Both the position numbers and the translations under genes were made by a program. A stretch of DNA of 64,000 nucleotides, taken from Selaginella tamariscina (taxonomy: Eukaryota; Streptophyta; Lycopodiopsida; Selaginellales; Selaginellaceae). The stretch is from assembly GCA_003024785.1 (NCBI GenBank), contig PUQB01000050.1, positions 150,001 through 214,000 on the forward strand, in the 5' to 3' direction. Numbering within the stretch: the stretch's first letter is position 1; each line of letters opens with the position of its first letter. The notes below the pieces were generated by a model that was given only the letters and a program-made list of their open reading frames with translations, made no database searches and had not been told where the DNA came from. This document shows, one piece after another, positions 1,676 through 51,382 of the stretch.

Positions 1676-1818
1676 TTAATTACGTCTACTTCTCTCTGTG
1701 TATTATTTTTGTATATTCGGGTTTATACAAGTGTGTGTGCGTTTTTATATAATTTTATTTATAGTGTATTATTTTGCAGAAGGACGATTTGATCAAACAA
1801 GGAGATCGAGTCATTAGT

Positions 1819-4907: not shown

Positions 4908-5183
4908 ATTGATAGAGTGATGAATAGTTGTAAATGAGTGTAACATAAGGCATTTTTGTATATTTCTTTTATATTTGTACAGAAAATAAATTCTCAAGGA
5001 TTAATGAAGCTTTTAGTTCAAACATGGGTCACACATTAACAAGGTAAATAATATACCTTGATAATTTTAAGGTCAGCTAATTATCATTTTGCAGATGTAA
5101 TGAAATAATTGAGAACATGGATTTTCAGCATTGCATGAGGTAAGAGAGGGGTTTGGCGACAATTTCTTGTGCCACATGTCAGA

Positions 5184-6326: not shown

Positions 6327-6624
6327 TAGAAGAAAGTATTTATAAAAACATGTTGATAAGAAAATGATTTCATTTGTAATTATGTTTGATAGTATTTCTT
6401 CATTATTGTAAACTATTTTTAGAATAATATGAATATTCTAAGATATTTTAGGAATATTCCTTACTAAGTAAGGTTATTGAAGGATTTAATTAATTAATTA
6501 ATTAATATTTAAGGCTTAATTACATATTAATTAAATGATTAATTAATAATTAAAACTTAAGTATTAATTAGTAATTTATTTTATATTCCCATTTTCACGT
6601 ATCATGCCCACTTTAGTTACAACG
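6327..6624. repeat. Right subterminal region and terminal inverted repeat of copy A
   Basis: This is non-coding AT-rich DNA with TTAATTAA runs and GAATATTC-type motifs (about 6430-6460), ending in the terminal inverted repeat at about 6603-6624. The same sequence closes copy B. Confidence 0.8.
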
Positions 6625-9136
6625 TGCATCCTTCATCCTTCACTTCCTTTATTCGGCAGGCGCATATGGAATCAATGGACGAGTACACGGATACGACAAG
6701 TACTTCTACAACAGCGGTCAATACGGCATCTCAATCAGAACCGGCGGTTTCAATTCCTCTTACACCAGTCCTTTATCGTATTGTCCGTCCAGCACCAAAC
6801 TCATTTCGGATATACGAGAATGGATCTAGAGGATGCAGTTGGAGTGATATTTCAAAACGTTTGTACACAAACGATTGGATCAGCAAGGTGAACACTTAGT
6901 CGACCAGGCGATCAAGGCATACCTACCGCAATACAAGGCTCTACAACTATAGGGCGGCGCATTTGCATTCACAAGTAAGCTTATTTGAGATGTCTTTGAA
7001 TTCCCAGATCCAGACATCTCCTATGATCCAATTCTACAAGTCAACACATACGTTCATCACTACACCGATAATTTGGACAAGTTTTGCCAGAAGCAGAAGA
7101 TGGCGAATGCGGCACCAACGTCAATCCTACGCGAACCTCATAAGAGTCATATAAGGCTATTACTATTGCATTCGCTTTCCACAAAACGCCGACAGGATTC
7201 AATAAGGAGATCGGGTATGTATATCATCAATCTGAACAGGGACAGAAATCGGATTGGGGGAGCTAGTCGTAGTAGGGCTACAATGTGAGTTGAACACTCT
7301 GCACAACCCCAAAAGCAAGGACAAGGAGACGTCCGTATTTTCGGTGCTTCATCACATTTTGACAACTATCAACATTACATATGCGGACTTAGCACTAATA
7401 GGTACACTGGTACTCACAACAAGGATGGGCTTTTGGTTAGATCTTACCAATTAGTACCCGGATAATGTGTTCAACGTCCATAATTTGGATGCGCCACTAC
7501 CAACTAAGTTGAAGAAACAGCCACGTACACAAGCAAAGAAGCCAGAGGAGCCGCAGTCAAAGGAACCCAAGATCATACTTGAGTTTGTGGACAAGGAGGA
7601 AGACGATGATCGAGTATTGCAGAGGAGACCTTTACCTCGAGGAGACTAGTGGAGGATGCAAAACAGGCCCATGGCATCAACTTCTGTACCACACACGGAG
7701 TGTGAAGACACAGCACTACCAGATCACAATTAGCCCATAGGACTGACTTCAACAACACCCATGGAGTGTGGGGATTCTGCGCCATTCAACAGTACGGGTC
7801 CTACCGTAGTTCCGTCACCACCATCAGTTCAACATCAAACTACGGCAGGTACATCTTCTCATATCATACCACCACAGGTAGTACCTCCAGCACAACAAGT
7901 ACGGGAATCAGTAGTACGGCAGTCAGGACAAGAACCGAATTCAGCAGAACCGGCACCTGGACAATCTGCCAAAAACGACATCCATGATAAAGAGTAGGAC
8001 CAACAACAGCCCTATTCACCAATACAACAGATGGGACATCACGCTTCGGATCATCAGGAGCGGGACATTTCAAGGAGTTCGAAGCACACTCGTGATCAGA
8101 TTGCTTCACCCAGACTCCCACTGTAGGACCCACCACAAGATATGACTCTCAAAGGTCAGCTTTCCCACCTTCGCAGTGTCGTTGATTCTATTACGCAATA
8201 GGTAGCACTTCAACGAGCATATGCTACTTTCAATCAGCAACTTCATGACCATTGTAATATGATTGACAAGAAGTTCTTGGAGCAGTCAAACATCATACGA
8301 CGTCTATATGACCAAAACAAGGTACTCATGGACAATGTCACACACTAGTTGACCAAGTCCGTAATATCCATGAGAAGATGAGCGAGTTCAATCCAACAGC
8401 TACTCCAACATCAGATGACGCGGACGAAGTACGTAAGTTACGCGAGGAGAACCTCAAGCTGAAGAACTTCGTCGCTTCTCTGTGTGGAACTGCGGGCACA
8501 TCATAAGGTTGCATCGGGGTGATGCAACACTTCCAGTCTGGGGGGATGTTAGGATCATAGTTAGACATTGATAGAGTTTCTTGTTATTTCATGGGCAATA
8601 TAATGGGAAATATCAAAAACAATATATATTATGGAAAACCGAGAGTGGGAAGGATATATCGGAGTACGAGTTATTAACGCAATACCGCAATACGAGTCAT
8701 CACCACAATATGATACTAGCGGAGTACGGCGTGTTTGGATAAGGATAAGAAGGAGTTACAGTAACTGAATGGATAAGGTTGAGAGGCAGTTGCGATAATT
8801 GCTAGTACGGCACCTAGAGTACGGGTATAAATAGACCAGATTAGGACTAGAAGTGAATCCCGAGTATATTGTTATTTTGTACCATGTGCCGTGTGCGGAC
8901 ATAATATAAGTTTCCTTTCAATACGTCTTTTTCTTACTCGTATTTCTGATTTGTGGTATACTATTCTTATTTCCAGTACTGTGATGGGATCCATAGTACT
9001 GTTACCTTGCCATCTTTACCCTTTTCCAACCTTCTAATGTCTGATTTCTGCTCTATTTTATTCCGGTAGACCCTTAATACGAGTTTATCAAAAGCAATCT
9101 TACCTTGGTGCAGTGGGTAGATTTTATGGTTCAACA
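6625..9136 (+). mobile_element. Fossil Ty3/gypsy-type LTR element 1, 3' part
   Basis: This is the 3' section of an LTR retrotransposon on the plus strand: internal DNA (6625-8546), a polypurine tract just before 8547, and a 3' LTR (8547-9136). The internal part shows no recognised domain; its open pieces are rich in Thr, Ser, Gln and Pro. The element is broken in several places. Its LTR is the same family as the minus-strand LTR at 15678-16270. Copy A of the DNA transposon abuts it at 6624, which suggests nesting. Confidence 0.7.
8547..9136 (+). repeat. LTR of gypsy family 1 (3' LTR, plus orientation)
   Basis: It begins TGTTAGGATC and ends GGTTCAACA (TG...CA borders), 590 bp, preceded by the purine run TCTGGGGGGA. 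The whole length matches the reverse complement of 15678-16270 with scattered differences, so the two belong to one family but are not identical. Confidence 0.85.
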
Positions 9137-9750
9137 CTATAGACAAAGTACATAATATTATGCAATCAAGGGCTCCAACTCTTTGCCTTCTAAAAGGTTG
9201 TGCAAGTGTAAGGTGGAAACTTGGAAATGGTTACCTTCATTGTGTGACTAAAGGAGGAGACAATAAATAATTCTTGTCTTCCATGTTGCTCCACTCTGTA
9301 CCATTAATATGTCCTTTGAACATATGAATCTTTTTGCTTGGATGTAGTTCTTCTCCTACTCTTTTGACATCTTATTAGGCATTCTGACAGAACTTTCGTT
9401 GTAACTTGGCACTTAAGCAACCCCAGGGGCGATGGAGTCTTCTCCTTGAGTGTGGCAGCTTGACACACATATGGTCCTCTTGGTGGTGACAGAGTTTTCT
9501 CCCTGAGTGTGAAAGATGGTTGTACTACTATTTGTTCAACTCCCTTTAGCTTAAATCTTGATTCATGTAAAATTGTAACCTCCTCAATTGTCAAGTTTGT
9601 TCCTTTATGAACATGTCACACATTAAGCACATGGACAACCTTTGTTTGAATGATCCCTTACATAGGGATGTTTGTAACATGTAAAGGATGGGGGCAAAAC
9701 TACATTATTTAGCACACATGTTCAACATTTTCGAAGACATTTGTATAACA
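9137..9750. other. Intergenic, no gene recognised
   Basis: I see no known domain here. A minus-strand open stretch (9304-9594) holds two copies of a short motif (TLREKTLSPP and TLKEKTPSPL), which may only be an internal duplication. Confidence 0.4.
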
Positions 9751-9754
9751 TGCA

Positions 9755-9958
9755 GGTTATAACTAAAATGGGCATGATACATGAAAATGGGAATATAGAA
9801 TAAATTGCTAATTAATACTTAAGTTTTAATTATTAATTAATTATTTAATTAATATATAATTAAACCTTTAAATATTAATTAATTAATAAATTAATCCTTC
9901 AATAACCTTACTTAGTAAAGAATATTTCTAAAATATCTTAGAATATTCATATTATTCT
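9755..9958 (-). mobile_element. Isolated right end of the giant DNA transposon (inverted fragment)
   Basis: The sequence GTTATAACTAAAATGGGCATGATAC and the following AT-rich 200 bp are the reverse complement of the right ends of copies A and B. TGCA (9751-9754) flanks the terminus, as in the other copies. Similarity stops at about 9958. It is an older truncated relative or the stub of a lost copy. Confidence 0.8.
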
Positions 9959-18685: not shown

Positions 18686-19409
18686 ATCCCCACAGCATTT
18701 AGTTGTCTTATTCTTGATAAAGCATCCGCAACTACGTTCTCCTTCCCCTCCTTATAGAGGATTGACATTCGTCCACCAAACTCATGTAGTGAGTCAAGAA
18801 ATGTCGTAGAGGTTTATGATCGGTAAAGACCTTAAAGTCTAACCCATTATGTAACTAATGCCTCCAAATACGAACAACATGCACAATAGCAAGCAACACT
18901 TGGTCATATGTAGAATAACGCTTCTCCACATCATTCAACTTCCGACTCTCAAAGCTATAACATGACCAGCTTGCATCAACATGGCTCCAAGTGCATACCG
19001 CATGCATCTGTGTACACTCGAATGGTGTATCAAGAGCAGAAGTAAGTACTTACTTCAATCTCTCAAAAGTTGTTGCTTCCTTGGCTGTCCACACAAACAA
19101 CTTGTCCTTCTTTAACAAAGTTGTTAGTGGAAGTGCAATACGAGAAAGTTCAGCACAAATCTCTGATAGTAATTGGCAAGTCCCATGAAACCTCGCAACT
19201 CTCGAACATCTTTTGGAGCTAGCCAATTAGTCACAACCTCAACTTCTTGGGATCAGGAGCAATGCCATGTGCTAAAACAATGTGACCAAGGTATTCTACC
19301 TCCTCCTTGAAGAAGTCACATATAGATTCCTTTGCATAAAGCTTATGCATTCTCAACACAGTTAGAACTATTCGCAACTATTGCACATGCTCCTCCCATG
19401 TCTTATGCA

Positions 19410-19910
19410 AGTTGTAACTAAAATGGGCATGGCTATAGTCCCATTTCCTAATAATTAGCAATTTTAGCTATTTAATTAGCATTTTCTAATATTAAAGGAA
19501 TATTCTTTAGAATATATGTTTGAAAAGAGAATATTCTTTAGAATATTCTATTTTGTATTCTACCCTTTAATAAATTATAGCATTCATTGAACAAAAATTA
19601 ATAACATTAAAAAGTAGAATGTATTAAATTATATAATATATTGCCTAATATAACAATTAAGGAAGAGCATAAGAGGTACATTATATAAATATTGATGTTG
19701 TTATTAAAATATTAATATTTAAATATAACATTATTAATTAAAAATTTGTAGTAGTAATAATATATATATAAAATCCTATAATAATATAGTCAATCTTCCA
19801 TATCATTTTTTAAATTTATATAGTTAAGTATACAATTTGGTACTATTATTAAAGAGTTTATAATAATTATGAATATTAAATATATGATATTTTATAATTT
19901 TGTAATTGCT
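19410..19910. repeat. Left terminal inverted repeat and subterminal region of copy B
   Basis: The terminal repeat (19410-19431) is followed by AT-rich DNA with AGAATATTCT-type inverted motifs at about 19497-19550. Similar GAATATTC motifs lie at the right end (about 33830-33860), which fits subterminal transposase binding sites. Copy C has the same sequence from 55133. Confidence 0.75.
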
Positions 19911-22900
19911 TTAAGCTTCAGAAAACATACATTCCCTTGCAGTTTTGTTAATCGTGACTTTATCAACGCTTCTTGACATCCACCCATATCGAATGGATTT
20001 AACATTTATAAAACATGCTGGGTCTTTTTGATTGGGAGACCATGTTTTCTCTAGGCATCCATTATATCTTTCGCTCTCCTTCTCGTGTCGCCTTTTTTGT
20101 GGTTTGAACCATGCAACCTTAACAATACTATTTTTTGTGATTACTTCAGGTGTGTCGATAATTTGACCCATCCAAATAGGCTGATTATATGACGCATCTG
20201 GAGTAATGAGAACCATCATTAGTTTTTGAAGATCCTTGCAGCAATCAAAGTATGCTTTAGGTTTTTGGTTCCTTTGTCCAACAAAGTGTGGGGTTTGCAC
20301 TTCCACATCACTACTGGCTTCTATGTCGTCTGTGCTCAGTGATGTCATTTCAATCTCCTCTCGCCACCTTGTTTTAGGCCAGAAAGGGTGTTGCAATTCT
20401 GTACTTGTGACAGTAGGCCCTTCCAACTCTCGAACAACAGTCTCCCAATAGTTGACCACATGCTTATATAGTTCTGAGTAACCAGTTGCCTTATCAGAAT
20501 TCTTTGGCATCGATTTTTGAACCCATGCCACATATTTTTTGATGCCATCAATAATAACCTCTTGTTCCTTGAGCTGGGCACTCAATGGAATAGGGTCTGG
20601 TTGTCCTTCTGGGAGAAGTGGCTTTCCATCCTCTCCACTTTTGAAGAGCATTAAGCCCTCTTTCGGTAACCACTCCTGCTCTGATGGCCGTAACTTGTAC
20701 TGCATAATAGGTATACCATCTCGTATGGAGAAAAAGAATTGTAGCGGCACAAGGTGACCAACTAAAGAATCACTCCCTTCTTTTATATACTCCTTGAGAA
20801 ATTTTTTGAAGTCTGGCACCTCAGTCACAAGCAAAGCACAACTTTTTTTGGAGATGCAATTTTCAAAAAGATTCATCATATGCGGTAAGGTAAGTGCACT
20901 TGTCCTTTTTGTAGAGTTGGAGACCTTGCTGAAGAACGCATCAATATCTTCATGAGTGTGACCAACCATAAGGAAACTGAGCGTGATTGTTTCAAACACA
21001 CCTTTGGCAACAAGCATTGACAAGTATGCTAGCACATATCTAGAAAATAAAAGTAAGTATGAGCTTGAGAAACCCTTAAGTAAAATGATTTACCTATTTT
21101 TGTTCTCGCCTGCACAATTATCCATCTGTAAAAGCAAATGACGAGGAAGCTTATTTGATGTTGAGGACACATGTACACTATTTGAGCTAGATCCCTCCAC
21201 TGAACCTGAACTCTCAACAGGGCCATCTGTTTTTTGTGCAGGTTGCTGACAATGCCTCTCATATTCCCAAGTAGCCTCAAGTGCAGACGTGTTCATGAGA
21301 GCATTATGTAAAGGTTGAAGGTGTTGTTTCTTCACTTTGAGATCACTGATAGGATTTGTCTGTGAGTGGGCTTCAAGGTTTCTGAAACACATGGCTAACG
21401 ACCCAATAGTGAAATTGGAGTCGCTAGACCAATGTGGAAGTGAAAAGTGTCCATATGACTCACAACCGTGTCCATGTGTTAGCACACCTGTTAAAGAAAT
21501 CGGAAGTTTCATGACATTTCCAAGGCACTTTGGTGTTGCAAAGAGCTTTGGAATGCTGGTCTTTGAATGATCCATCTTGTCATGGATCAAGCACAGATAC
21601 TCTGATGGGCGTGACACAGAAAGCATGCGGTGTGCATAGTACTGAGACCGACAAGTTTGTTGTGCAATCATGTGGGCCTCCATCTTCCTTTGAATGGTAG
21701 TGATCTCCACCAAGGTTTTTGCACAAGCCTCTGCAGCCTTCAATGATGTACAAGTGTCACACTTAGAAAAGCTAGAGTGTTTTGCAATCTCCACATCCTT
21801 AAAATGAGTATTCCATATGTTGTTGAAGGTACCAGTGCAGATTGCTTGGAGCCCCATCAAACTGAGGCACTTGTTCACATGTTCACACAGTTTCAATTGA
21901 GTGTAGATTGAAGGTAAAACCTTGAGATTTTCCCTGACCCCTGCATTTGTGGTTCGGCATTTGTGAGGCATCCTGTCTGCATTTGCTTCCACAAAAGCCT
22001 TGAGTATCTCTATGGCTGCCATGATGTGAGAGCGGGTTTTGACCAAGCCAGTGTTCCCATGAACTGAGGTTCGCGCTCCATCTAGCCACTCATCCCTCCG
22101 ACGGTAGAACGTGGTCTTTGGGATCCCGTATATACTGTACCAAGCTTTGAAGCAGATGGCCACCTTATTAAATACCATGGATGTACTCTGATAACCTGTG
22201 TCCGAGGCCATTCCATCAATACACCCAGTTAGTGCAGCATATACAAACTCATGCCTTTGCTTTTGGGTGAGCATACGAAAGACATGTCTACATTGGGTAA
22301 TTTCATTCCGGTCTGCCATCTGACAACACTTCTTCTTGCAACAGTCAATCGTGGAAATGCTCGTAACACTTTCGGAAGATGTAGGATCCATCTTTACCCT
22401 CTTGCTGAAACTTGCAGGGGAAGATCTACAACCCATGAATCGCCTTTTTCTTACAATAGGACCAATGCAAGGAACCTCTTCAAATATGAGTTGTTCTTCC
22501 GGGTTGTTATTATTGAAATCCAACCCAGAATATGTTGAACCATCTTGCCGTCTTAATTCAGATGTTCGCCACCTCACGAGGGATCCAGGATACAATGTGC
22601 CATTAGGTGAAACCTCTGTCACAACTACACCCACGAAGTCGGACCCTAGTTTCTCTTCTGACACTGCTTCCATTGGATTTATAGCTGTGATGATGCCTCT
22701 TCCGACTTCAATCTCACGAAGAAAGAGAATCACCTCATCCATCACAGCAGGCAAGCCATCATCTGGTAAACTCGTGCTACTATTTGTTTGTGACTCTGCA
22801 TATTTTGTGTCAGCCTTGACTTCATCCAAATTCCACAATACAGGAGAACCCTCCTCAAAATTCCATTCCCAGAACCTCAACATGCTTGAAAATGTGTTCA

Positions 22901-23001
22901 CCCATACGTACACACAAGATCCTTGGGAAATATTGTACATGATGCATTATCTCGAACTCCACAGTTCCAATGCCAACTATCTCGTTGTCCGAAGAAGACA
23001 T
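19911..23001 (-). CDS. DDE-type transposase (DUF7869/Sola-like), copy B
   Basis: This is the probable transposase of the element. It has two main exons, 23001-21094 and 21039-19911, with a 54-bp GT-AG intron that splits an Arg codon (NKN-R-YVLAYL). Visible parts: a Cys-rich stretch CCKKKCCQ; a helix-turn-helix-like block (YGIPKTTFYRRR); then three acidic motifs spaced like a D-D-D/E core, IHDKMDHSKTSIP, LLLQMDNCAGENKNR and FLMVGHTHEDIDAFF. The C-terminal 370 residues follow in exon 2. The expected start MSSSDNE at 23001 is out of frame with the main frame because of small deletions at about 22930-22980 relative to copy C, so copy B may start at an internal Met (22940) or be N-terminally damaged. 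The rest is open. Transcription diverges from the ParB-like gene, with a palindrome array just upstream. Confidence 0.75.
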
Positions 23002-23162
23002 ACTTATCTCCAGTATTAAACAATTGTCTGCACATAAATAAGTATTATTTATGATATCTGTATGCAATATTTTTAAGAAATCTGAATTACGTTACTTAAT
23101 AATATGCATATGCAATAATACATATTATGTTAGAGATAATATCTCATGATTAATACAACTGA

Positions 23163-23935
23163 TGGGCGGATTAATCCCGCCAACGAATCCCTCCGACGAG
23201 GAACGGTCGGGGATTAATCCCGCGCCGACTCAACCCCTTCGGAGAGAGTCGGCGGGATTAATCCCGCCGCCGACTCAACCCCTTCGGAGAGAGCGGGATT
23301 AATCCCGCCTTGGACTCCCTCCGACAAGGAAGAGCGGCGGGATTAATCCCGCCGCCTCTTCCTCCTCGGGGGAGTCCGGCGGGATTAATCCCGCCGACTC
23401 TCTCCGACGAGGAAGGGAGTCCGGCGGGATTAATCCCGCCGACTCATCCTCGCCGGAGAGAGTCGGCGGGATTAATCCCGCCGACTCCCTTCCTCGTCGG
23501 AGGAAGAGCGGCGGGATTAATCCCGCCGGCTCTTCCTTGTCGGAGGGAGTCCAAGGCGGGATTAATCCCGCCCACAATTCTTACGACGGGGAATGGGTGG
23601 CGGGATTAAATCCGCACATAACTCTCTCCAAAACTATGATTTCAAAGAGATCTCGGGATAAATCCTGTCCCCAAATCTTTAAAACAGTGAAGTGGTGGCG
23701 AGATTAATCCCGCCACCCCTTCCCTGCCTCCTAAAACGGTTGGCGGGATTAATCCCGCCGACAACTCTTTCTAATAAATTCTGGTAACTCTTCATCAGTT
23801 GAGAAGGTTATCGACGGGATTAATCCCGCCACTCTTTTTCAGTGGCGGAGAAGCATTGCCCGGGAGATGGTGGCGGGATTAATCCCGCCACTTCTTCAAA
23901 GAGGCGAAAAAGAAATGGCCGGATTAATCCCGCCG
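23163..23935. repeat. Left palindrome array of copy B (upstream of transposase)
   Basis: Perfect GGCGGGATTAATCCCGCC copies start at 23251, 23336, 23378, 23423, 23464, 23510, 23555, 23742 and 23872, with imperfect copies between. Spacing in the regular part is 41-46 bp. The spacers, rich in CTCCCTCCGACGAGGAAG-like sequence and its complement, are unrelated to those of the right array, although the palindrome is identical. It lies about 160 bp upstream of the transposase start. Confidence 0.95.
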
Positions 23936-23939
23936 CCCC

Positions 23940-25320
23940 AGTTAACCTAGAATATTAAGTTAAAAGGATATTTAAACGTGATAAATCCCTAACGGAATAT
24001 ATTATAATCCTAATGCATTTCTAAACCCCTAAATTGTAATTTTAAGAGAGAATGTAAGAGAGTGAATCTTAATAAGTATTTTTAAATTTGTTTATAATAC
24101 TTACTTGTAAACAGCACTGAAGGCGCCGTGCTTTCCTATAAAGAATAGCACCCAATTTAATCTCGCTCCTGAGATGATCACTATGAAAAAAGAAGATCTA
24201 AAGAGTGAAAAATACAGAAATGAAGAAACCCTTGCCGGAGAAAGAACCAGATCTGAATTTGAGTGGGAAATTAAATGCATTTTCAAATTTATATGTCAGA
24301 CCGACAATACATATGTCAGAAATTCAAAATTTTTAAAAAGAACAGAAAATAAAATTTAAGATGAGTTGACACAAATATCCGACACTCTGACATATATACT
24401 CTCCAGTTCCAATGAGTATTTTAAAATTGCATTTAATGTTATTCAAGTGATTCAAGCTGTTTAATATTACGAAATTTTAGACTATATTCTACATTCTTAG
24501 TATTCAAGTATATTTATATTATATATATATATAAATATATACTTATACAATAAATAAATTGATATATTATTATGTATCATTTAAAATATATTCATAGTCT
24601 GTTTATTATTATTATTTTCTTAATTACTCGAGTATTTAGTTTTCATTTCCTAGTATCAATGGGATATTCTTTAATATTTTATTAATATTTGAAGAATATT
24701 CTAATATTAAACCTGATTATCATAATTAAATTAGTCTTGTTCTTAATTATTGCAGTAATTATTCTACATTTGTATATATTAATGGGATTTTCTCAATTAA
24801 TTTGTTATTATTTCAAGAATATTCATGTGTTAAACCTTATTATCAATATTAAATTAATACACACTATGAACATATTTTAAATTATACATAATAATACATC
24901 ATTTTATCTAATATATAGTCATATATATTTAATAATATATATATAATATCATTTCCTTAATTACTTGAGTAATTAATCTTCTTTATATTAATGGGATATT
25001 CTTTATTATTTTCTTATTATTCCAAGAATATTCCAATATTAAACATGATTATGATAATTAATTTAGTTAATTATTTGAGTACTTAATTTACATTTGTATA
25101 TATTAATGGGATTTTCTCAATTAATTTCTTATTATTTCAAGAATATTTCAATGTTAAACCTTTTTATCAATATTAAATTAATATATATTATTAAAACTAT
25201 ATATGGCTATATATTAGATAAAATCATATATTATGTATAATTTAAAATATGTTCCTAGTGTGTTTATTAATTTTATTTTCTTAATTATTCGATGTTTGTT
25301 TTGCACACATATATAAACAC
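23940..25320. repeat. AT-rich core with diverged ~330-bp tandem units
   Basis: There is no gene. From about 24590 to 25260, two diverged units of about 330 bp lie head to tail. Each contains two sub-blocks with TATTAATGGGA, AAGAATATTC and ATTAAACC(T/A)-type segments. The same pair is in copy C at about 60225-60910. Confidence 0.65.
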
Positions 25321-25524
25321 AATCATAAATTTACACACGCATTACAAGAACTTACAAAAACACATATGCACACACATGCACAACCCTAAACCAAACTGAA
25401 GAAATATGTTGCTTCTTTATTGAAAACATCATGTTCAACGCATGTATGATATATGTACTCAATCTGTGTATATGTAACACATTGAATTTACATGTGTAAT
25501 ATTTATATTAAGCTTGTTGGGAGC

Positions 25525-25554
25525 AAACCCTAAACCCTAAACCCTAAACCCTAA
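25525..25554. repeat. Interstitial telomere-type repeat block
   Basis: About four AAACCCT units in tandem, the Arabidopsis-type plant telomere motif. A second block is at 25991-26018. Copy C has a shorter one at about 61293-61323. Inverse TTTAGGG motifs are scattered at 26225-26340. Confidence 0.85.
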
Positions 25555-25559
25555 TATGT

Positions 25560-26150
25560 AACACAATGAATTTACTCATGTAATATGTATGTATGTCTGT
25601 GTGTATACACGTGTGCATGTATATATGTGTACTCTGTATGTATATATGTGTACTTTCTGTCTTCTCTCATACATACACACCATGCATGATCCATATTAAT
25701 ATGTACTGTCTCTCTTCTCTCAAACATACACACCATACATGATCTATAATATGTACTCGGTCTCTCTAATATTATGTACTAATATGTATGTATGTCTGTG
25801 TGTATAATACACACCATGCATGATCCATATTAATATGTACTGTCTCTCTTCTCTCATATACTATGTATGTATATCTGTGTATAATATGTGTAAGTATATA
25901 TTGTACTAATATATGCAATGTGTACAAAAATAATTTTTCAACACTCTCTTCTCTCATACATACACACCATGCATGATCCATCCTAAATCCAAAACCCTAA
26001 ACCCTAAACCCTAAACCCATGTAATATGTGTGTATGTCTGTGTGTATACACGTGTGTATGTATATATTATGTGTATTAATATATGCAATGTGTACACATG
26101 AAACTTTAACACTCTCATGGACACACACATGTTAAATCCCTGCATGATTT
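25560..26150. repeat. Minisatellite with CATACATACACACCATGCAT motif
   Basis: A loose tandem array of segments containing CTCTTCTCTCATACATACAC, ACCATGCATGATCCAT and TGTGTATACACGTGTG. Copies occur at about 25665, 25715, 25805, 25950 and 26025. A similar array is in copy C at about 61060-61690. Confidence 0.65.
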
Positions 26151-26387
26151 ATATTTTTGAGGTGTATGTGATACACCCACACACACGCACGCGCTAATAA
26201 TATAATGAAAGAATATTCGTTTAGGGCGAATCTATATTTTATTCTTTTTAGGGTTTAAGTATATTCTCAGAAGGAATATTCTATTAGGGTTGATATATAT
26301 ATTTAATTCCTTTAGGGTTTAGGTATATTCTTAGGGTTTCAAGAGGCGGCGGCTGTGAAATCGGCGGCGGCTGTGCACACAGGTGAG

Positions 26388-26390
26388 ATC

Positions 26391-26421
<31 letters not shown>

Positions 26422-26600
26422 ATATGTATAGGAGTGTGCGTATAATTTTTTTTCTTAGTTTTATCTCTCGCACACACACGCACACTCCTGTGTATGTATA
26501 TGTGTCTGTATGATTTATTTGTTTCGCTCACACACGCATACACACGATATAACATATATTATGTGTACCAGTATCTGTAAATTTTTTTTATTGATCTTGC

Positions 26601-26684
<84 letters not shown>

Positions 26685-26771
26685 GTGTACCAGTATCTGT
26701 AAATTTTTTTTTATTGATCTATCTCTCCCACACACACGCGCACTGCTTTACACACACACACACACACACAC

Positions 26772-26806
<35 letters not shown>

Positions 26807-27480
26807 CAATGCATATTAACAAATAGTATACAACACTAGTTTATATATATGCTTATATATTCATAATATACACACATATATATATGTGTGTGTTTATCTG
26901 TATAATTTTATTTATTTATTAGTTTTATCTCTCGCACACACACGCACACTCCTGTGTATGTATATGTGTGTGTGTGTGTTTGTTTATCTGTATGATTTTA
27001 TTTGTTTCGCTCACACACGCATACACAATATACATATACACATATATATATACCTATATACATATATACATACATACAACACTAGTTTATATATATGCTT
27101 ATATATTCACAGACTCTCTCTCTTTCTCTATAGATTATATATCTATATACACACATATATATGTGTGTGTTTATCTGTATAATTTTATTTATTTATTAGT
27201 TTTATCTTTTGCACACACACGCACACTCCTGTGTATATATATATGTGTGTGTGTGTTTGTTTATCTGTATGATTTTATTTGTTTCGCTCACACGCATACA
27301 CACGATATACATATACACACATATATATACCTATGTACACACATATATTAGGTGTACCAGTACTGTATAAGTTTATTTATTTATCTATCTCTTGCACACA
27401 CACGTACACTCCTATACATACATACATACATACATATATATACACACACACACATATATATGTGTGTGTTTTTATCTCGC
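26388..27480. repeat. CA / TA / TG microsatellite block
   Basis: Long (CA)n, (TA)n and (TG)n runs, for example TG at about 26391-26411, CA at about 26603-26651, TA at about 26653-26682, CA at 26751-26771 and TA after it. A unit with CTCGCACACACACGCACACTCC and GTTTATCTGTAT is repeated several times. It ends directly at the first palindrome of the right array (27495). Copy C has the same layout at about 61960-62420. Open frames here are artefacts. Confidence 0.8.
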
Positions 27481-27494
27481 TAAGCCCCTCGAGC

Positions 27495-28864
27495 GGCGGG
27501 ATTAATCCCGCCGCTATATAGTTGGGGCCATGGCGGCGGGATTAATCCCGCCGCCGAGGCCCTTCAGGCATGGGTGAGCGGCGGGATTAATCCCGCCGCC
27601 GAGGCCCTTCACGCAGGCTATGGGCGGCGGGATTAATCCCGCCGCTCTACGACAAACCGAAGAGCGGCGGGATTAATCCCGCCGCCCATAGCCTGCGTGA
27701 GGGGCCTCGGCGGCGGGATTAATCCCGCCGCTCATCCATGCCCTGCGCGGAATGCGGCGGGATTTATCTCGCCGGCAATGGCCTGTGTGAAGGTTCTAAT
27801 GGGCGGGATTAATCCCGCCGGATTCCGCGTAGTGCATTTACAGGGAATGGGCGGCAGGATTAATCCCGCCGCTCTTCGGTTTGTCGTAGAGCGGCGGGAT
27901 TAATCCCGCCGCCCAGGGAATTCACGCAGGACATGAACGGCGGGATTAATCCGGCCCCACGCTCATGCCCTTCGCGGAGGGCGGCGGGATTAATCCCGCC
28001 GTTCATGTCCTGCGTGAATTCCCTGGGCGGCGGGATTAATCCCGCCCCCACCCATCCCTGTTCAAAAATGCCGCAGCCAATATATATGTGTGAGCGCATG
28101 ATTTACGAGAGGGCGCGGGATTAGCCTCCGAACCTTCATTACCCGGTGGCGAGATTAATCTCCGAACCTTCATTACCCCATTGGTATGTTGAATCAATCC
28201 CGACTAACTCTGTCTGAGACGGAGAAGGTTTACAAAATACCAATGGAGGGAACCGAGAAGGGTGGTGGGATTAATTTCACCATCCCTTACATGGTGGGCG
28301 GGATTAATCCCGCCGCGTACGCATGCCCTGCGCGGAATCGGGCGGGATTTATCCCGCCGCCATTGGCCTGCCTGAAGTGCCTAGGCGGCGGAATTAATCC
28401 CGCCCGATTCCGCGCAGGGAATTGGCGTCCGGCGGGATTAATCCCGCCGCATAGGGATCGAGTGAAGGCCCTGGGCGGCGGGATTAATCCCGCCGAGTCT
28501 TCAATGCCTGTTGGAGAAATGAATCTCGCCACCCTTCCCTTTTTCCTCCATTGGTGAGTTGGACCAATCCCAAACGTTTCTGTCTAAGACGTAGAAGGTT
28601 TACAACATACCAATGGAGGGGACTGGGAAGGGTGGCGAGATTCATTTAACCATCCCTTACATGGTGGGCGAGATTAATCCCGCCTCCTTTCTGGAGTCAC
28701 TGAAGGGGTGTGAGAAATAAATCCTGCCCAGTTCTCTCTGAGACCGAGAAGGGTGGCAAGATTAATTCCGCACTCCCGTTCATGGCCTCCAGAAAGGTGG
28801 CGAGATTAATCCCGCCCACTCTTTCAGGAGGCATTGAAGGGGTGGCGAGATTAATCCCGCCGCA
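27495..28864. repeat. Right palindrome array of copy B
   Basis: The first perfect palindromes start at 27495 and 27535 and the array then follows copy A closely. Compared with A, copy B lacks 180 bp, equal to four 45-bp units, in the 840-1000 stretch of A. This points to unequal exchange or slippage in register. The promoter-proximal end has GGCGAGATTAATCCCGCC variants. Confidence 0.95.
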
Positions 28865-28975
28865 CCTTCCATGTGAATATATATGTGTATTAGTATATAT
28901 AAGTTGCATATCTCATTTTATTTACTTTTATCATCTTTCATATATTTCGAGTAAAAGCTAGGAATCTATGTAAAA

Positions 28976-29058
28976 CTGTCCAGAGCTCACATTTGTGGTG
29001 GTTCTAAAACGAAATGTTATCTTTCTTTTGCACTAACACAAATGTGAGCTTCGGACAG
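28976..29058 (+). repeat. Conserved leader hairpin (copy B)
   Basis: The same 22-bp arms with a two-base bubble as in copy A at 1593-1675. It lies about 145 bp before the ParB-like start codon. Confidence 0.6.
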
Positions 29059-29202
29059 TTAATTACGTCTACTTCTCTCTGTGTATTATTTTTGTATATT
29101 CGGGTTTATACAAGTGTGTGTGCGTTTTTATATAATTTATATTTATAGTGTATTATTTTGCAGAAGGACGATTTGATCAAACAAGGAGATCGAGTCATTA
29201 GT

Positions 29203-32200
29203 ATGGAGTCGTCGTCAAATTCTGGGTAAGAATTAAAATAAAATCTGTTATACTCGGATACTTGAACTAATCATTTTTGTATTCAGATGTGGAATTGAGG
29301 TGACATTAAAGACAAGAGCAGGAGAAGAGATGGGCAGGGGGATTCTGGAATCAACTTGGCCATATTTTAAGATAAATGGGAAGCGCATTGGAGCAACCAT
29401 GGTTGCTGTCAAATTAACCTCTGTCACATCTCATGGACAAGCAAAACAATGGAAAGTAGATTCGCTAGTCAAGCACCCGAAAGCAGGCTGCGAACCCAGA
29501 TTGGACGATGCTCGACAGATATGCCTTGTTCCATCCAATGTCACGTTCTCGGATCCAGAGGTCGTCAGTTACAACATTAATCTCGGGTGGTTTTGTCGAC
29601 TTGTGGATAATGACGTTCACGTGTTCACTAATGATGTTGACCTTGGAGTTCTTCTTCAACTCAACGAAAGCCCATCTATGGAGGGGATCCATCTGGATGT
29701 CTACTTCGAAGATCTTCAGACTCATCGAGTAGGTGTATTGTCAGGAGATATTGCTTCACAATACAGAAAATCAGCAAGTGGAGCAATCTTCCCTCTTGAC
29801 ATTGAAGAAGAACACAGCGACATCATAAGGGAGATTGAGAAGGTGGCTCGGTCTCAGGTTCTCTACAGATCACGTTCAATTTGCTTAGGAAGCTTCGGGA
29901 GCTGGAGAGTGTGCCGAGAACACTAGAACAGCTGCAGTCGGGGATCACACATGTTGATTCGGATCGCAAAAGAAAATCATCAATCGTTTTGTCAGCTGCA
30001 CCTGTGGCATCTCATGCTGCAATAAGTCACAAGGAAATGATGTTGGATGATAAGATTTATCCTTGTAGGGTTAAATATTGCAGCGTCAACCCAAACTTCA
30101 ATTACAGGCCACTCAACCAGGAACGTGTAGCTGAGCTCATGGAGAAGATGAAGGACGACAATTCTTATACCGTTCCACATAATGCTGTTTTGTGTCCATA
30201 CTATGAAAGAAGGAAGGGTGCTGACAAAGTCTGGATCACAACACCAGAACAACTCATGAAGATTCAGACGGAGAATAAAAGATCTATCAAGTACTACATC
30301 ATTAGTGGCCAGCACACAATAACGGCAGCCCAACGACTTCTCGATGAACACAACAAAGGAACGATGGCAACAAAACTTTCCGAGCATACCCGTGAGAAGC
30401 TGACAAAAAGATCGGCGTTTTTAGCTAAGCCGAATCTCACAATCGAGCAGTACCATAAGTTATCGGCGGAATGGGACGCTGCCGACACCAACCACTACAA
30501 CAGCAAAATATGGGAGAAGTTTAAACACACGCGAGCCGTGTGGGAATCTCTTCAGCGACCACAAAGAGCTACCGCAGGGAATACACAATCTGCGGAATAC
30601 CGGGTAAGCAAATTGTTTGGGCGGGATTTATCTCGCCGGTATATTAATCTGTCTTTTTCCTCAGAGAGTTGAAGAAATTGCAGCAGTTGATTTTGCCCAG
30701 GTGGGCGGGAAGGAAACATCTTTCTGATGATGTTGATTTCTTGCCCCGAAGATAGGATCTTTGCCAAATGGTTGGGGATTATGGAATCCTTTTCAAAAGG
30801 AACACTGAAGAAGAAGCAGACAAGTGAAGGGGAGCCCTCAGAAAAGTCTGCAAAGAAACCCAGTAAGACGCCGAAGGCTAAGTCTGTTCAATCTACAAAG
30901 GATGTAGACAACGATTTCAAGCTCACATGGTTGAAGCCTTTAAATGGAACAACGATGGAGGAGATGGAAGTCTTGGCTGATTTGGTGATCGATGGCAAAC
31001 TACAAATTAATAACAGCAGCCCAACCTCTCCTTTTCATCTCAAGGCAATGGAGTTGAAGACGGTCAGGCATTTCAAGGAGTGGTTGGGAATACACTGCCA
31101 CAAACTGGGTTGGACCTCGACTTCAACATATGAAGAGGTAGCAAATATTTGCATGTGACGAACGATGATATGCTTGTCGAATGGGTGAACCAATCGGAAG
31201 ATCTAGGCAAGAATCTATTGCACGCCAACGCCAAAAAGGAGAACATTGGGATGACGCCTTCTCTTATGGCAGTCCTTCAGCAGCGGAGAACCGAATTGAA
31301 CCTTATAAAGGAGGATGCTACGAATCACGACAAGCCCTACAGATGTTTGTTGTTAGATTCGGAGACTTTATGGGGTAACATCACTGCTTGTAGGAAACCG
31401 TTTCAATTGTTCGTGATGGATCGGCGGGTGTCAAAAAATCTTTCGACAGATAGGGCACTAGAGGATCTGGTGGAGAAACTTAGCCGTGCAAGCATATACA
31501 TAGAAGGTATTTATTATTGAATTCATGCTTGCGCTCTTCACTGATACCTACTTTTTCAGGTATTTATTTCTTGATTCTTGCTCATGTCACCGATACTTTT
31601 GCCTTCGCCTTCGCCAAGAAGAATAGACATCGTTGGACAGGATTTTATATGAACGATGCTAATCCCAAGTGCATTGATACTGTTGTTCACTTGGTTGTTA
31701 GGAATGCGCCAAACAATTTCAAGCTTCCAAATGACTGGCCAGGCATCTGTTTGCACTCCAACGGCCCTGAACCTCCATCCGATACACCGATAGGTATGAG
31801 TGACGTATTCGGCAATGTACGTTATCCAAACATTACAAGTCAAGCGGCACGGAGCATCGTCAACTTGATCAGGGGTCCTCACAGTGATGCGTGGGTTTTT
31901 GACTACTGCACTAGGGGGTCCGTCTTGAAGGAGTGTTACCTTCGGCATACATGTGTGTTTGCCGTTGAGAAGGATAAGACCATGGTTGAGGACCTGAACA
32001 AGTGGATAGATTGGGTCTCAACTGAGTACCCCAACGAATCCATAAAGGCGTATTTGAGAAAGTTCCCTCCAGATAAGTGCGATAGCTCTGAAGGTGAATC
32101 TGGTTCAATCTCGGAGTCTGAGAACGAACATCAATCAGATATTAGACCGGAAGTTATCTCGAGGAGTACAGAACATTCGCACACTCCAGGACCCATGGAA

Positions 32201-32305
32201 ACATCAATAGAAGATGCAGAAGATCTTGAACCATCTCACAAGCGGCTTAGACCTTCTTCGCCTCACTCAGAAGGTAATAGCGAAGAAGAATTGATAATGA
32301 ATTGA
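29203..32305 (+). CDS. ParB-like / SAM-methyltransferase-like protein, copy B (light frameshifts)
   Basis: Exons: 29203-29225, 29287-30603, 30665-31506 and 31560-32305, all with GT-AG introns of 53-61 bp. The start ATG is just after an acceptor-like TTTTGCAG, so a 5' leader intron is possible. The protein is about 960 residues. The N-terminal 230 residues are unrecognised. Then comes a ParB/sulfiredoxin-like domain (VNPNFNYRPLNQERVAELM ... YYIISGQHTITAAQRLL), then a basic linker. The C-terminal YPNITSQAARSIVNLIRG plus WVFDYCTRGSVLKECYLRH and FAVEKD resemble the K-P-x-x-L / motif I / motif II order of beta-class N4/N6 DNA methyltransferases. The glycine-rich loop is degenerate and no DPPY motif is seen. 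Phage and bacterial ParB-methyltransferase fusions have this order. Small indels near 29908, 30719 and 31138 relative to copy A shift the frame. A polyadenylation signal AATAAA is at 32378. Confidence 0.65.
30604..30664 (+). other. Intron with palindrome variant (copy B)
   Basis: GT-AG intron after the ParB-like domain, holding GGCGGGATTTATCTCGCC, a variant of the array palindrome. Confidence 0.65.
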
Positions 32306-32577
32306 TAGAGTGATGAATAGTTGTAAATGAGTGTAACATAAGGCATTTTTGTATATTTCTTTTATATTTGTACAGAAAATAAATTCTCAAGGATTAATGA
32401 AGCTTTTAGTTCAAACATGGGTCACACATTAACAAGGTAAATAATATACCTTGATAATTTTAAGGTCAGCTAATTATCATTTTGCAGATGTAATGAAATA
32501 ATTGAGAACATGGATTTTCAGCATTGCCATGAGGTAAGAGAGGGGTTTGGCGACAATTTCTTGTGCCACATGTCAGA

Positions 32578-33741
32578 ATGACAGAGTTCATGCAGGAAAT
32601 GGATAATAATGCAGCTCAAAACATCGTTACCATGGGGGCCACTTCATCATCATTTTTATTGGCTTCAGTTCCGAAATCAATTTCTTCAGCGCATGCAATA
32701 TCTGAATCTTGTAAGGATGATGTACAATTAAATGATGAAGGGATAGGCAACGAAATAGTGGCAACGGATAAATGTGAAAGGGAGCAAACAAGTGATTTGC
32801 AAAGTATTCAAGAGGCAACGCTATCTCATGTTACTCATGGCCATATTGTGTTGTTGGATGTCAATGGTGTTCTGCTTCATCGACAAAGGCCCAGGATAGA
32901 AAAACAGAAATCAAACAAGGAGATTTCATTCCTTGTCATGGTAAATTTCGATATGATATTATTTTTCGTCCAGGGTTGGATCGTCTCTTTCAAAAGCTTA
33001 AGGAGATGGGTGCGCTTGTGGGGATTTGGTCATGCATGCAGATTCATAACTTAACACCGCTGTTGAGTTTACTTAAGAAACATTGTAGTGTTGCAGAAGA
33101 GGTGATTCGTAAAGATTGGATTTTTGACCAGCGAATGTGTTATAAACCTCTCGAATTTCACAATATAAGAAAGGAAAGCAAGCCATACTTCTTCAAGAAT
33201 GAAAGAATAATTGGGACTCATGGGGAGATCAGTCGCTTAAGGATAACGAAGAATGCACATATCTTAGTAGTAGACGACTCTCCTCAGAAGGCTATGCTCA
33301 ACCAAAACATTGCTTGTATTCATCCAATCACTTTCGATCCATATTCTGATATCGATATCATGGATGAGCTAGTGAACTACTTGGATACGTGCCTCAGAAA
33401 GAAGAATCTCGAAAATTTTTGTGAGCAGTATCCACCGTATCATACATTTCCTGAAGCTTTTCTTTCTCGTGATATTGAATTTTATAAAATGAAGGATAGC
33501 AACCGGGCGCTTTATAATATTATTCTTAAGGAACGTCAGTTTTTAGATGAGCCTTTATGCAGACCTCTCTTATACATCTTATGTATTAACAAGGATGGCA
33601 ACTCCCAATTGCATTCGTGAGAGTGTTAAGTGGTGGCAACAACATCAAGATATTGACCAAAATGATTTGATTAATCCGGAGAGTGATGATTTAGACAAAA
33701 TGAAAAGATTTCTTTGTATGATAGAAAGAAAGTATTTATAA
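32578..33741 (+). CDS. FCP1/NIF-like HAD phosphatase-like cargo protein, copy B
   Basis: The start ATG at 32578 is preceded by a short upstream open frame (MDFQHCHEVREG, 32510). The main frame gives a Ser-rich N-terminus and IVLLDVNGVLLHR (HAD motif I with DxN in place of DxD). After one change of frame near 32880-32900 it continues KFRYDIIFRPGLDRLFQKL, GIWSCMQIHNLTPLL, KDWIFDQ, and ILVVDDSPQKA, typical for FCP1-like CTD-phosphatase domains (about 215 residues). The frame change is also in copy A. The C-terminus differs from A by a late indel near 33567. The role in the transposon is unknown; it may be a captured host gene. Confidence 0.65.
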
Positions 33742-34024
33742 AAAATTAACATGTTGATAAGAAAATGATTTCATTTGTAATTATGTTTGATAGTATTTCT
33801 TCATTATTGTAAACTATTTTTAGAATAATATGAATATTCTAAGATATTTTAGGAATATTCCTTACTAAGTAAGGTTATTGAAGGATTAATTAATTAATTA
33901 ATTAATATTTAAGGCTTAATTACATATTAATTAAATGATTAATTAATAATTAAAACTTAAGTATTAATTAGTAATTTATTTTATATTCCCATTTTCACGT
34001 ATCATGCCCACTTTAGTTACAACG
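33742..34024. repeat. Right subterminal region and terminal inverted repeat of copy B
   Basis: AT-rich, with GAATATTC motifs at about 33832-33860 and TTAATTAA runs. The terminal repeat is at about 34003-34024, followed by TGCA. Confidence 0.85.
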
Positions 34025-34314
34025 TGCATCTTGCTATAGATGATGTCTTATGAACGAGCAACACCGGTGCTTCATATGGTGACTTACTAAGATGAATAAA
34101 TTCTTGAGCAAGTAATGCCTCAACTTGCTTCTTTACTTCAAGCTCCTCTAAGTAGCTTAACCGATATGGACTTCGCGACATTCGTTTACTCCCCGATTCC
34201 AACTCAATCTCGTGTTGAACACCCCGTTCATGTGGGACTCCCTTAGGCAATTCATCAGGAAACACATCCCTGAATTCTACCTTCAGTCGCAAAATCTTGA
34301 CGCCCTCGGTCAAT

Positions 34315-37709: not shown

Positions 37710-37775
37710 TGAAATTCACGGCAGACGACAGGAAGAAAAAGGTATCGTATATTGAGGGAGTTTTCAAAGGCTAAA

Positions 37776-40366
37776 ATGGATGTCTCTCCAGATCGTCCAG
37801 ACTTGCTACCTCTAGAGGTACGCAGTCTAGACGATTTGGAGAAAAATCTGATCAAAATATGCCCCGTTAGAGTGGCAATTTTGAATCGTGGTTTCAAAGA
37901 TTTTGCTGGACTGCAACACTTGCTCAGGGCCGAGGATAATGTCATCGAGCACATTGACCTTATCGAGATTTCATCTCCTGAGGAAGGCTTGCTTGAAATG
38001 GTTATCACTAGCGTGAGTAGTCTAGGATTAGGCCTTTCAAGTACAGGAGGAGTTACTGCTTTGAACGAGGCCTTTGACATTGCCATAAAGAACAACAAAC
38101 CAATCAAGTTGAAGACCCTCGTACTAAGGACCTACTCTGATTTGGATCTATCTAAGTTGGCCATCATCACAAAACACATTGAACGCCTTATGATTCATGG
38201 TATTAGGTTTCACGGGATTGATCAATTACTATCTGATCCAACTTGCAGGATTCGGGATCTCTATATAGAAACTTTGAATGCAGAGTGGATCAGTGATGTG
38301 GTTGACAAGGGTAGAAGCCTACGCAAGCTGGGACTTCATGTGTATTATAGCACGCCAATTGAGTTCTTGACCAACCCCAAATGTACCCTTGACGGACTTG
38401 AAATGAGGATTGACAACACCGAACATGATTTGCAGGAGAGAGCCAGTGCTATTGCCAGATCTAAACTGTCTTCCCTTTCTATAGAGCTGTTCGATCTGTT
38501 CGATGACGATGGCATTGAGGATATTGAAATCATACTAAAGGCTGTACAGACTGCACCTTGCCTAACCCACTTGGTTTTACAAGCTGAATATTTTGATGAC
38601 GACGCTATAACTCGGATTGAAGAGTTTCTAACTAATCCGGACTGCAAGCTTAAGGGTTTTGGTTTGAGAGGAAATCTTGATTCCAGCTTTCAAGAGACAA
38701 TCCTCAACAAGTTAATTACAAACTACAAGATTTTGGAGCTGGATTTGCCTTGGGATTCAACTGAACTCAAGACAAAGTGGTTGGGCCTACAACAACGCAA
38801 CATTGCCGTCCAAAAGAGCCCCATCAAGTACAAGTTTAAACGTGGAAAGCTGGCTTTAATGTTCTCCAACACACTGCAACAGTGTGAAATTTTTAATGTT
38901 GGATGTCAAAGGGCACGCATTCACATGTTTCCAGATGGTAGAACAGGTATTAAAGCTTAGTTGTAAGTGTGCGTGATTAACTAATCACCTTTTATGCAGA
39001 GATTCACGTTCTCAGTGATGAAGAGTGGAGCAAGGAATTTTCAGCAATGGATTATGAAATACAATTTGACAAGCTCATGGCAATTTGTGGTCAAGGAGGC
39101 ACTAGTGGAGACTCAGGTAAAACAACTTCTGACCCGAGTGGCAGTGGAGATGGACAAGACGCCAAACAAAATCAGGAACAGGAGAAGCAAAACAACAAGG
39201 GGAAAGGCATAGAACAGAGAGATGATGAGCATGGCGAGGATGATGAGGATGACAAAAACGACAGAAATAAGAGGAATTACATTGCAAAGGGACGTACAAA
39301 GAAGAGCGTGAAGGAGTTCACCGTGGACGTGCACTTTGATGGAACAGACAACAAGGGACGTTTAATCGAAGGCAAACCAACGCAAGCAGTCTTCCCACGC
39401 ATGTTACTCACGTTCAAACATTACAAGACAGACCATCCGACTCTAAATGTGCAGGTGCATGTGACTTATCAAATAGCAAGCGAAATGGAAGCAGGCCCTA
39501 TCCATGACAAGTTTTTTGTCATGTTCAAACCAGAAAGCGATGGCAACACATCCATAACTGGTAAGCCAAGACTGAAGAATGTACAGAATATCAACAAGAT
39601 GGAGAAGTTTTTAAAGAGATTTGAGATGGGAAATGAATTCAACATTGGAGGTAAGGTAGGAAAAAATTTGTACATACTAGATGCAAAAGGGCAAGGTGGA
39701 TACAAGCGTAATACATTGACAGGGAGCTCTACTGAAGAACAAATCTCACGTGATGTCTTGCATCTGGAGGATTCACAGCTCACTATCAAAAGTTTAAATG
39801 ACCTTGCCGTGCAACAGTTTGGATTCATGGCTCACAACCCAAAATTGAAAGTCAAACAACTGGACAAAAACACAATTGAGAAGTATGTATCAGAAGCTGA
39901 TGAAGTGTGTCTGCATTGTGAAGCTGACTACGATCTTTTAGACCACCATGGACACACTCTCCATCCTTACGAGTTGACAGTTGGAAGGGATGTCATCTTC
40001 TTTGATGATGAAGGATGCCTCCATCCCTTCACAAGGACCACCAAATACTTCTTGGAGATCAAGCACAAAATCAACTGGAATATGTACAAGAATGGACATA
40101 AGATGATTTGGAAGAAGATGGAAAGTGAATTTTTGAATGGCATTCTCAAACGGGGTAACATAATTCCTCCTGAGGAACGTAAAGAATTCGATGACCTCTG
40201 TGAACAGGTTCAAGCCCTGCAGAAGAAAGATCCATCAAATAGCAACCAGGATCAGTTTGTGCAGTCCATCACCAACAGGGACCAGCCATCTGCCAGTGAG
40301 AATCCTAATACGTTAACAGGGTGGTTTCAACAGTGGCTAACTGAACGTACAGAACAATATTTTTAA
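37776..40366 (+). CDS. LRR-like protein with unrecognised C-terminal domain, two exons
   Basis: Exon 1 is 37776-38946 and exon 2 is 39000-40366, joined by a 53-bp GT-AG intron that splits a Glu codon (GRT-E-IHVLSDEEW). The product is about 845 residues. Residues 1-390 contain irregular leucine-rich repeat-like segments (LKTLVLRTYSDLDLSKL, LRKLGLHVYYS, LTHLVLQAEYFDDDAI, LKGFGLRGNL) of the ribonuclease-inhibitor style. An acidic/basic linker follows (about 410-470). The last 370 residues are a domain I do not recognise, with Cys/His at VCLHCEADYDLLDHHGH and a terminal Gln/Asn-rich tail. The start is the first ATG of the open frame; upstream exons are possible. An AATAAA lies at the stop codon. 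Both exons are open, so it is probably a working host gene. Confidence 0.75.
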
Positions 40367-51086: not shown

Positions 51087-51382
51087 ATGGTTATTTAGTG
51101 TGTAGTTGTGTCTATCATCAACGTCCTATCAATAGCCATCTTAAATCCTAAATCCATGTGGCCTCATCATAGCCATTGATTAAGCATGAGTAATGCATGG
51201 TTATCTTAAATCTTTCTTAAATTTCATTAATTAGTTAGTCTAAATTTTATTTATAATTTTATAAATTCAATTCAATAGATTCATAAAGTTAAGGTGGGTT
51301 ACTAAGTCCAACTTAAATTAAAGATAATTTAAGATTAGGGTTTATATACCTTCTACTTTTATAATATTATTAATTTTTTGTC

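Follow-up and report, generated by a model that had tools for sequence, protein, structure and literature searches.

Palindrome arrays in predicted 5' untranslated introns of a high-copy DUF7869-type transposon of Selaginella tamariscina: candidate binding sites of an element-encoded regulator

RESULTS AND DISCUSSION

A complete transposon with two divergent genes

We analyzed a 64,000-nucleotide stretch of Selaginella tamariscina DNA (assembly GCA_003024785.1, contig PUQB01000050.1, positions 150,001 to 214,000; hereafter, the window) that carries three copies of the same DNA transposon, within which an 18-bp palindrome, GGCGGGATTAATCCCGCC, is repeated many times. Copy A is a right half (1 to ~6629), copy B is complete, and copy C extends from 55128 to the window end. 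Comparison of the three copies set the ends of copy B at 19405 and 34029, defining a terminal-inverted-repeat element of 14,625 bp from whose central AT-rich region two genes point outward. A first-pass annotation had placed a large DNA transposon with divergent genes at 19410-34024; the complete element, its ends, and its target duplication were all found, and that span was correct to within 5 bases at each end. Features of copy B used below are as follows, with positions given for the window.

19405..34029, no strand: copy B, complete DNA transposon (copy comparison and flank joining)
19402..19404, no strand: left target duplication CTT, 3 bp (flank reading)
34030..34032, no strand: right target duplication CTT, 3 bp (flank reading)
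19405..19431, + strand: left terminal inverted repeat ATGCAAGTTGTAACTAAAATGGGCATG (copy comparison)
34003..34029, - strand: right terminal inverted repeat, reverse complement ATGCACGTTGTAACTAAAGTGGGCATG (copy comparison)
19911..23001, - strand: left gene, DUF7869-type transposase (Pfam PF25273)
29203..32305, + strand: right gene, ~four predicted coding exons, of a family without relatives found
23164..23934, no strand: left palindrome array, 14 sites at ≤2 mismatches (17 at ≤5), mean step 44.5 bp in the dense part
27495..28861, no strand: right palindrome array, 21 sites at ≤2 mismatches (25 at ≤5)
23028..24104, - strand: predicted 5' untranslated region (5'UTR) intron of the left gene, holding the left array (donor CAA/GTAAGTATT, acceptor TTATGTGCAG)
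26383..29163, + strand: predicted 5'UTR intron of the right gene, holding the right array (donor ACACAG/GTGAGATC, acceptor TATTTTGCAG)
30604..30664, + strand: predicted internal intron of the right gene, 61 nt (GTAAG...AG boundaries kept in most relatives)
30620..30637, + strand: single palindrome-like site GGCGGGATTTATCTCGCC in the internal intron (site search; same place in the divergent copy L050, described below)

The inverted repeats of copy B start with ATGCAMGTTGTAACTAAARTGGGCATG. When the sequences flanking copy B were joined through a single CTT, one frame read DIIYSKTWEEHVQ, a stop, and then LRIVLTVLRMHKLYAKES, which we take to be a Ty3/gypsy reverse transcriptase. The stretch DIIYSKTWEEHVQ is thus a reverse-transcriptase reading restored at the empty site, in a retrotransposon copy that carries stops of its own. 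Because the flanks plus one CTT restore this reading, copy B, the one insertion for which target duplication and empty site were examined, appears to have been inserted into a retrotransposon with formation of a 3-bp duplication.

Genome-wide counts were made on the 300.7-Mb assembly (1,391 contigs). The 36-bp left end GTTGTAACTAAAATGGGCATGGCTATAGTCCCATTT has 1,090 perfect copies (568 + 522) and the perfect palindrome has 27,128, and the reversed control gave 0 in both searches. Since these two counts agree with each other given the 22 perfect palindromes of copy B, the genome probably holds ~1,000 copies of the element, fragments included.

By its Pfam matches, the left gene is a DUF7869-type transposase. 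It has two large coding exons (21093-22946 and ~19914-21041), with a frame break near the start in copy B, and PF25273 matched it twice, at E = 1.7e-12 (47.8 bits) and E = 1e-26 (94.1 bits), against a cut-off of 26. Neither a tnp2-type nor a Mutator-type family was reported by Pfam for this gene. Two other DUF7869 proteins from the database, P0001 and P0002, compared as proteins alone, are 35% and 34% identical to it over 87% and 77% of the query, and they share its IHDKMD, LQxDN, and NKNR blocks; VGHTHEDID is also conserved. One database relative of the transposase gave a sub-threshold match to Transposase_23 (TNP1/EN/SPM; E = 0.023).

Palindrome sites in the window are confined to element copies and concentrated in two arrays

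At ≤2 mismatches, the palindrome occurs at 77 sites in the window (24 in copy A, 36 in copy B, and 17 in copy C), against 0.00 expected from 100 shuffles, and every one of them lies inside an element copy. Dozens of palindromes in two arrays had been claimed for this element, and the 36 sites of copy B, 22 of them perfect, against a chance expectation of none, bear this out. The motif is an inverted repeat, GGCGGGAT-N2-ATCCCGCC, with a TTAA centre in most sites and TTTA or TAAA in the divergent copies L049 and L050. Information content within the arrays is 0.6-2.0 bits at the 18 motif positions, a range inflated by the choice of sites for likeness to the motif, and 0-1.3 bits at neighbouring bases. 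Spacers of the right array (27598-27711) recur as inverted copies of each other, a higher-order inverted structure.

The confinement of sites to the element within the window bears on the origin of the motif. Its arms, GGCGGGA and TCCCGCC, resemble half of the E2F site, and the sites lie near predicted transcription starts, as would be expected if the element had multiplied binding sites for a host transcription factor (E2F-like, for example, with a site resembling GGCGGGAAA) that drive its genes in dividing cells. The bases that follow the arm (ATT), however, differ from the AAA stretch in the E2F consensus, and no site lies outside element copies within the window, so that host genes there do not use the palindrome. 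We regard a host factor as a doubtful explanation of the arrays.

Both arrays lie inside predicted first introns

The arrays had been described as standing in front of both divergent genes. Two arrays are indeed present, and splice signals place them inside predicted 5'UTR introns, a location newly recognized here. Each gene is predicted to open with an untranslated exon followed by a long first intron, and the donor and acceptor ahead of each start codon are identical in an alignment of copy B with copy C. A further site lies in the predicted 61-nt internal intron of the right gene.

This internal intron was surveyed at 69 loci (L010-L078), 30 of which (L010-L039) came from a search that yielded near-identical copies; L037 is copy B itself. 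Among the 54 loci with both intron flanks, 50 have a site at ≤4 mismatches, and 25 distinct intron sequences are represented. The remaining four (L067, L070, L074, and L076) have shortened or changed remnants of the motif in the intron.

The palindrome accompanies the element's genes and persists in a divergent copy

The first-pass annotation had proposed joint occurrence of the gene and the palindrome as a check in related genomes; in this genome, the two were found together at all 30 right-gene loci fetched. A fragment of locus L048 was used to obtain 30 right-gene loci of this one genome, a subset of 150 matches listed from 2,348 candidates that includes the query's own locus, L049, and copy C of the window (L054). 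At ≤4 mismatches, at least two sites were present in 30/30 loci and at least four in 29/30, compared with a maximum of one site in any of 20 shuffles per locus. The test set beforehand was whether relatives of the gene commonly lack palindromes, and no such relatives were among these 30 loci. On contig C1, 6/6 sampled array regions (seven stretches) adjoin an element gene, either the right gene or the transposase; four further listed regions were left out of this sample.

Locus L050 provides what we consider the strongest evidence for constraint on the motif, which is kept there among spacers that appear unrelated to those of copy B. The N-terminal part of its right-gene product is 52% identical to that of copy B. 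Between its first two coding exons lie eleven sites at ≤6 mismatches; they share the arms of the motif, their centre is mostly TTTA or TAAA, and 3/10 steps between them are exactly 45 bp. When sites were called by centre plus arms, L050 contained 11, versus 0 in 100 shuffles. Once the motifs were masked, no significant match was found between the first intron of L050 and the introns of copy B (best E = 0.14); copy C, masked likewise, does resemble them, with E values down to 5e-30. The internal intron of L050 (2452-2575) holds several further, partly decayed sites, and the older copy L048/L049 has the same motif pattern in decayed form.

These comparisons also address whether the arrays could be tandem repeats whose expansion served no function. 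The copies are recent, the arrays contain higher-order repeats, and turnover alone can homogenise repeat units, all of which would fit neutral expansion. Spacers, however, differ between neighbouring units and between copy B and L050 while the motif stays, and a 61-nt intron well away from the arrays still holds lone copies of it. Expansion without function is thus, in our view, an improbable account.

The site is more consistent with DNA recognition than with an RNA hairpin

A motif found in three predicted introns could instead act in RNA, forming hairpins within introns (7-bp stem, 4-nt loop) to control splicing or label transcripts. Read from sequence, such hairpins would pair perfectly, and the asymmetric centre of the internal-intron site reads ATTTAT on the sense strand. 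In the first intron of L050, on the other hand, sites with the asymmetric centre are found in either orientation (4 ATAAAT and 6 ATTTAT). Compensating changes between arms showed no excess among 493 distinct sites (48 matched pairs versus 48.6 expected from independent arms), in a test that is weak given that most copies decay neutrally. On this count of compensated changes, and within the limited power of the test, hairpin or cruciform constraint on the palindrome was rejected. The lack of excess compensated change and the use of both centre orientations fit a symmetric protein that recognises double-stranded DNA better than an RNA hairpin, and an RNA role seems unlikely.

The right gene encodes a protein without detected relatives

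The right gene of copy B has frame breaks, and small indels break the frame at different points in copies A and B; at locus L017 it is open across 477 codons. A composite right-gene protein was searched against a database of ~5.8 billion sequences, and no relative was found at E ≤1 among 8,000 candidates scored. The same held for the 246-residue middle part of the protein among 466 candidates scored in that database. The search requires shared short exact words, so remote relatives can escape it. A phage and plasmid search gave three matches in all, with E values of 4 to 10. The viral contigs searched were without relatives of the right gene or the transposase; the palindrome is present once in one viral contig. 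Two PHROGs families of unknown function matched the right gene at E 0.07-0.31 and were taken as noise.

A methylase-like reading of the last exons of the right gene was also considered, based on a resemblance by eye of WVFDYCTRGSVLKECYLRHTCVFAVEKD to amino-methylase motif I, and was rejected as evidence, surviving only in the more elaborate history outlined below. No match was found in Pfam, NCBIfam, or PHROGs, and a profile of 76 aligned phage ParB-methylases scored 15.7 versus up to 23.1 in 40 shuffles.

A ParB domain in the right gene is unproven

The first-pass annotation had read a ParB/sulfiredoxin-like domain in the right gene, in the following region.

30040..30375, + strand: region earlier called ParB/sulfiredoxin-like (motif reading)

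The motif on which this reading was based, YYIISGQHTITAAQRLL, was located at 30292-30342 on the + strand. The domain call itself found no support in Pfam, NCBIfam, or PDB sequence searches. ParB_N (PF02195) did not match the right-gene protein at E up to 10 and gave 0 matches in the six frames of the 300.7-Mb genome, in a search whose control was positive in 11/14 genomes. When profiles were compared with phage ParB domains, the alignment covered 17 columns around GQHTITAAQRL and scored 18.7 versus a best of 16.7 in 100 shuffles; it is weak, with an HH-suite probability of 2.3%. An earlier, narrower phage-profile comparison stayed within its shuffles (19.2 versus 20.7, 40 shuffles), and pairwise alignments with five phage ParB proteins were equalled by 6-29 of 200 shuffles. 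For this region, AlphaFold, run without an alignment, returned a low-confidence model (mean pLDDT 38.5, pTM 0.28). Phage ParB-methylase fusions such as L079 of phage AcaML1 contain a residue run similar to one in the right-gene product (IISGQHTITAAQRL versus IVAGHGRLAAARKL), but they show no significant similarity to it, and the methylase-like end scores below the best shuffles. On this sequence evidence, the ParB domain call remains unproven.

True ParB proteins recognise parS through a helix-turn-helix domain and not through the N-terminal domain, so a ParB-like N-terminal domain would not by itself predict binding to the palindrome. A ParB-parS-like system serving partition or nuclear retention of the transposon would fit the arrays of palindromic sites and the in-register alignment of GQHTITAAQRL with phage ParB domains, which outscored all 100 shuffles. 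Set against these are the lack of any ParB_N match in protein or genome, the HH-suite probability, and the pairwise scores reached by shuffles. No ParA-like Pfam match was found among ten scanned reading frames of copy B, which leave some bases uncovered, and a chromosome-integrated element would presumably need no partition. We consider such a system highly improbable, and nuclear retention of the element has no support here.

The palindromes may be binding sites of an element-encoded regulator

The reading we prefer, at about even odds (a probability of roughly 0.5), is that the palindromes are inverted-repeat binding sites of a dimeric, element-encoded regulator that controls its own element, a DUF7869-type transposon of high copy number. 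In this model, the dimeric protein would bind the inverted repeats throughout the first introns of both genes. The right-gene product would be the first candidate binder, since it is the family-specific second protein of the element. Once bound, the protein might keep both genes active or unmethylated, like VANC, or damp them, like TNPA, or do both. Splicing, protein binding, the identity of the binder, and the effect on transcription or methylation are the parts of this model that we infer.

Several observations weigh against this reading. In their N-terminal part, 27/30 right-gene loci are 74-90% identical to copy B, so they represent mostly one family in one genome; because most fetched copies belong to this recent family, common descent accounts for much of their likeness. 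Since the transposase gene is found with the arrays as well, co-occurrence cannot tell which protein binds. Evidence for unrelated spacers comes mainly from a single copy, L050, and the 7.3 kb upstream of L050 hold neither transposase nor palindrome sites, for which reason L050 is probably a fragment. The splice signals of the 5'UTR introns were compared in two copies, B and C, whose nearby DNA is also largely alike, which makes the conservation argument for these introns a modest one. No known DNA-binding domain, helix-turn-helix included, was found in the right gene by Pfam. Finally, helical phasing at 10.5 bp is absent from the arrays (resultant 0.13-0.19); a single stretch of nine sites has its peak at 11.2 bp, where the resultant is 0.92, reflecting its regular 45-bp step.

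Comparison with known self-addressing transposons

Two known plant systems resemble the proposed arrangement. In two reports on Arabidopsis, VANC proteins are described as causing loss of methylation and as binding motifs that lie in the non-coding sequence of VANDAL elements, also in introns, and the associated motif repeats are described as diverging quickly (PMC5735166; PMC10398659). The likeness lies in a transposon-encoded protein family paired with a short motif repeated in the element's own non-coding parts, introns included (PMC5735166; PMC10398659), and this feature is seen here in the arrays and in the single sites within predicted introns. The present element differs from VANDAL in its DUF7869-type transposase, which has no Mutator-type match, and in its 3-bp target duplication. 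Its motif also differs, being an 18-bp palindrome whose arms are common to a copy at ~50% protein identity.

The second system is En/Spm, a CACTA element. One report describes TNPA as binding En/Spm repeats and able to act on expression, and the shared features are a target duplication of 3 bp, the pairing of a transposase with a second protein, and a repeated motif (PMC2613891). The present termini, however, are ATGCAMGTTGTAAC and not CACTA, the palindrome arrays lie 3.8 and 5.2 kb inside the element ends and are not subterminal, and the DUF7869 transposase is without a tnp2-type match. By the features tested (transposase type, termini, and array position), the element appears to belong to neither VANDAL nor CACTA. 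By analogy with both systems, a self-regulating or silencing-evasion role would be the most plausible class of function. Among the papers listed in searches for DUF7869, for ParB with eukaryotic transposons, and for giant or moss transposons of this kind, no title or abstract opening described such an element.

If the reader of the palindrome is encoded by the element, this would add, outside VANDAL and CACTA, another independent example of plant transposons using a short sequence code to address copies of themselves. A clean site with thousands of natural targets would then allow escape from silencing, or its tuning, by transposons to be tested on a simple motif. Even otherwise, this DUF7869 element has been very successful and carries a second, unexplained gene for which the protein database searched yielded no relative. 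A more elaborate history is conceivable, in which a plant transposon acquired a gene resembling phage ParB-DNA-methylase fusions, whose product lost catalysis and turned into a sequence-specific reader of the 18-bp palindrome; the element would have spread this palindrome through its first introns as a self-addressed anti-silencing code before it was amplified to ~1,000 copies with ~27,000 perfect sites. We think this history quite unlikely to be correct.

Other features of the element and the window

A third gene region lies to the right of the right gene in copy B.

32563..33741, + strand: third gene region, read as an NLI-interacting-factor-like (FCP1-type) phosphatase (PF03031, E = 2.1e-8)

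Its frame is broken in copy B, and the role of an FCP1/NIF-type phosphatase reading in a transposon is unexplained. The AT-rich centre contains an approximately two-copy tandem repeat of 324-325 bp in copy B (24568-25292) and copy C (60189-60921). About 18 indels and 20 substitutions separate copies A (1500-6629) and B (28880-34029) over 5.1 kb. Indels make up an unusually large part of these differences, and assembly error rather than decay may be the cause.

Outside copies A-C, isolated older end fragments of the element lie in reverse orientation at 9747-9958 and 51341-51583. Two adjoining long open frames of 415 and 461 amino acids, with no Pfam match above cut-off, are found outside the element at 37713-40366. 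A PTM/DIR17-type Tudor match (E = 1.9e-9) and AAACCCT repeats, both pointing to a plant source, were also recorded.

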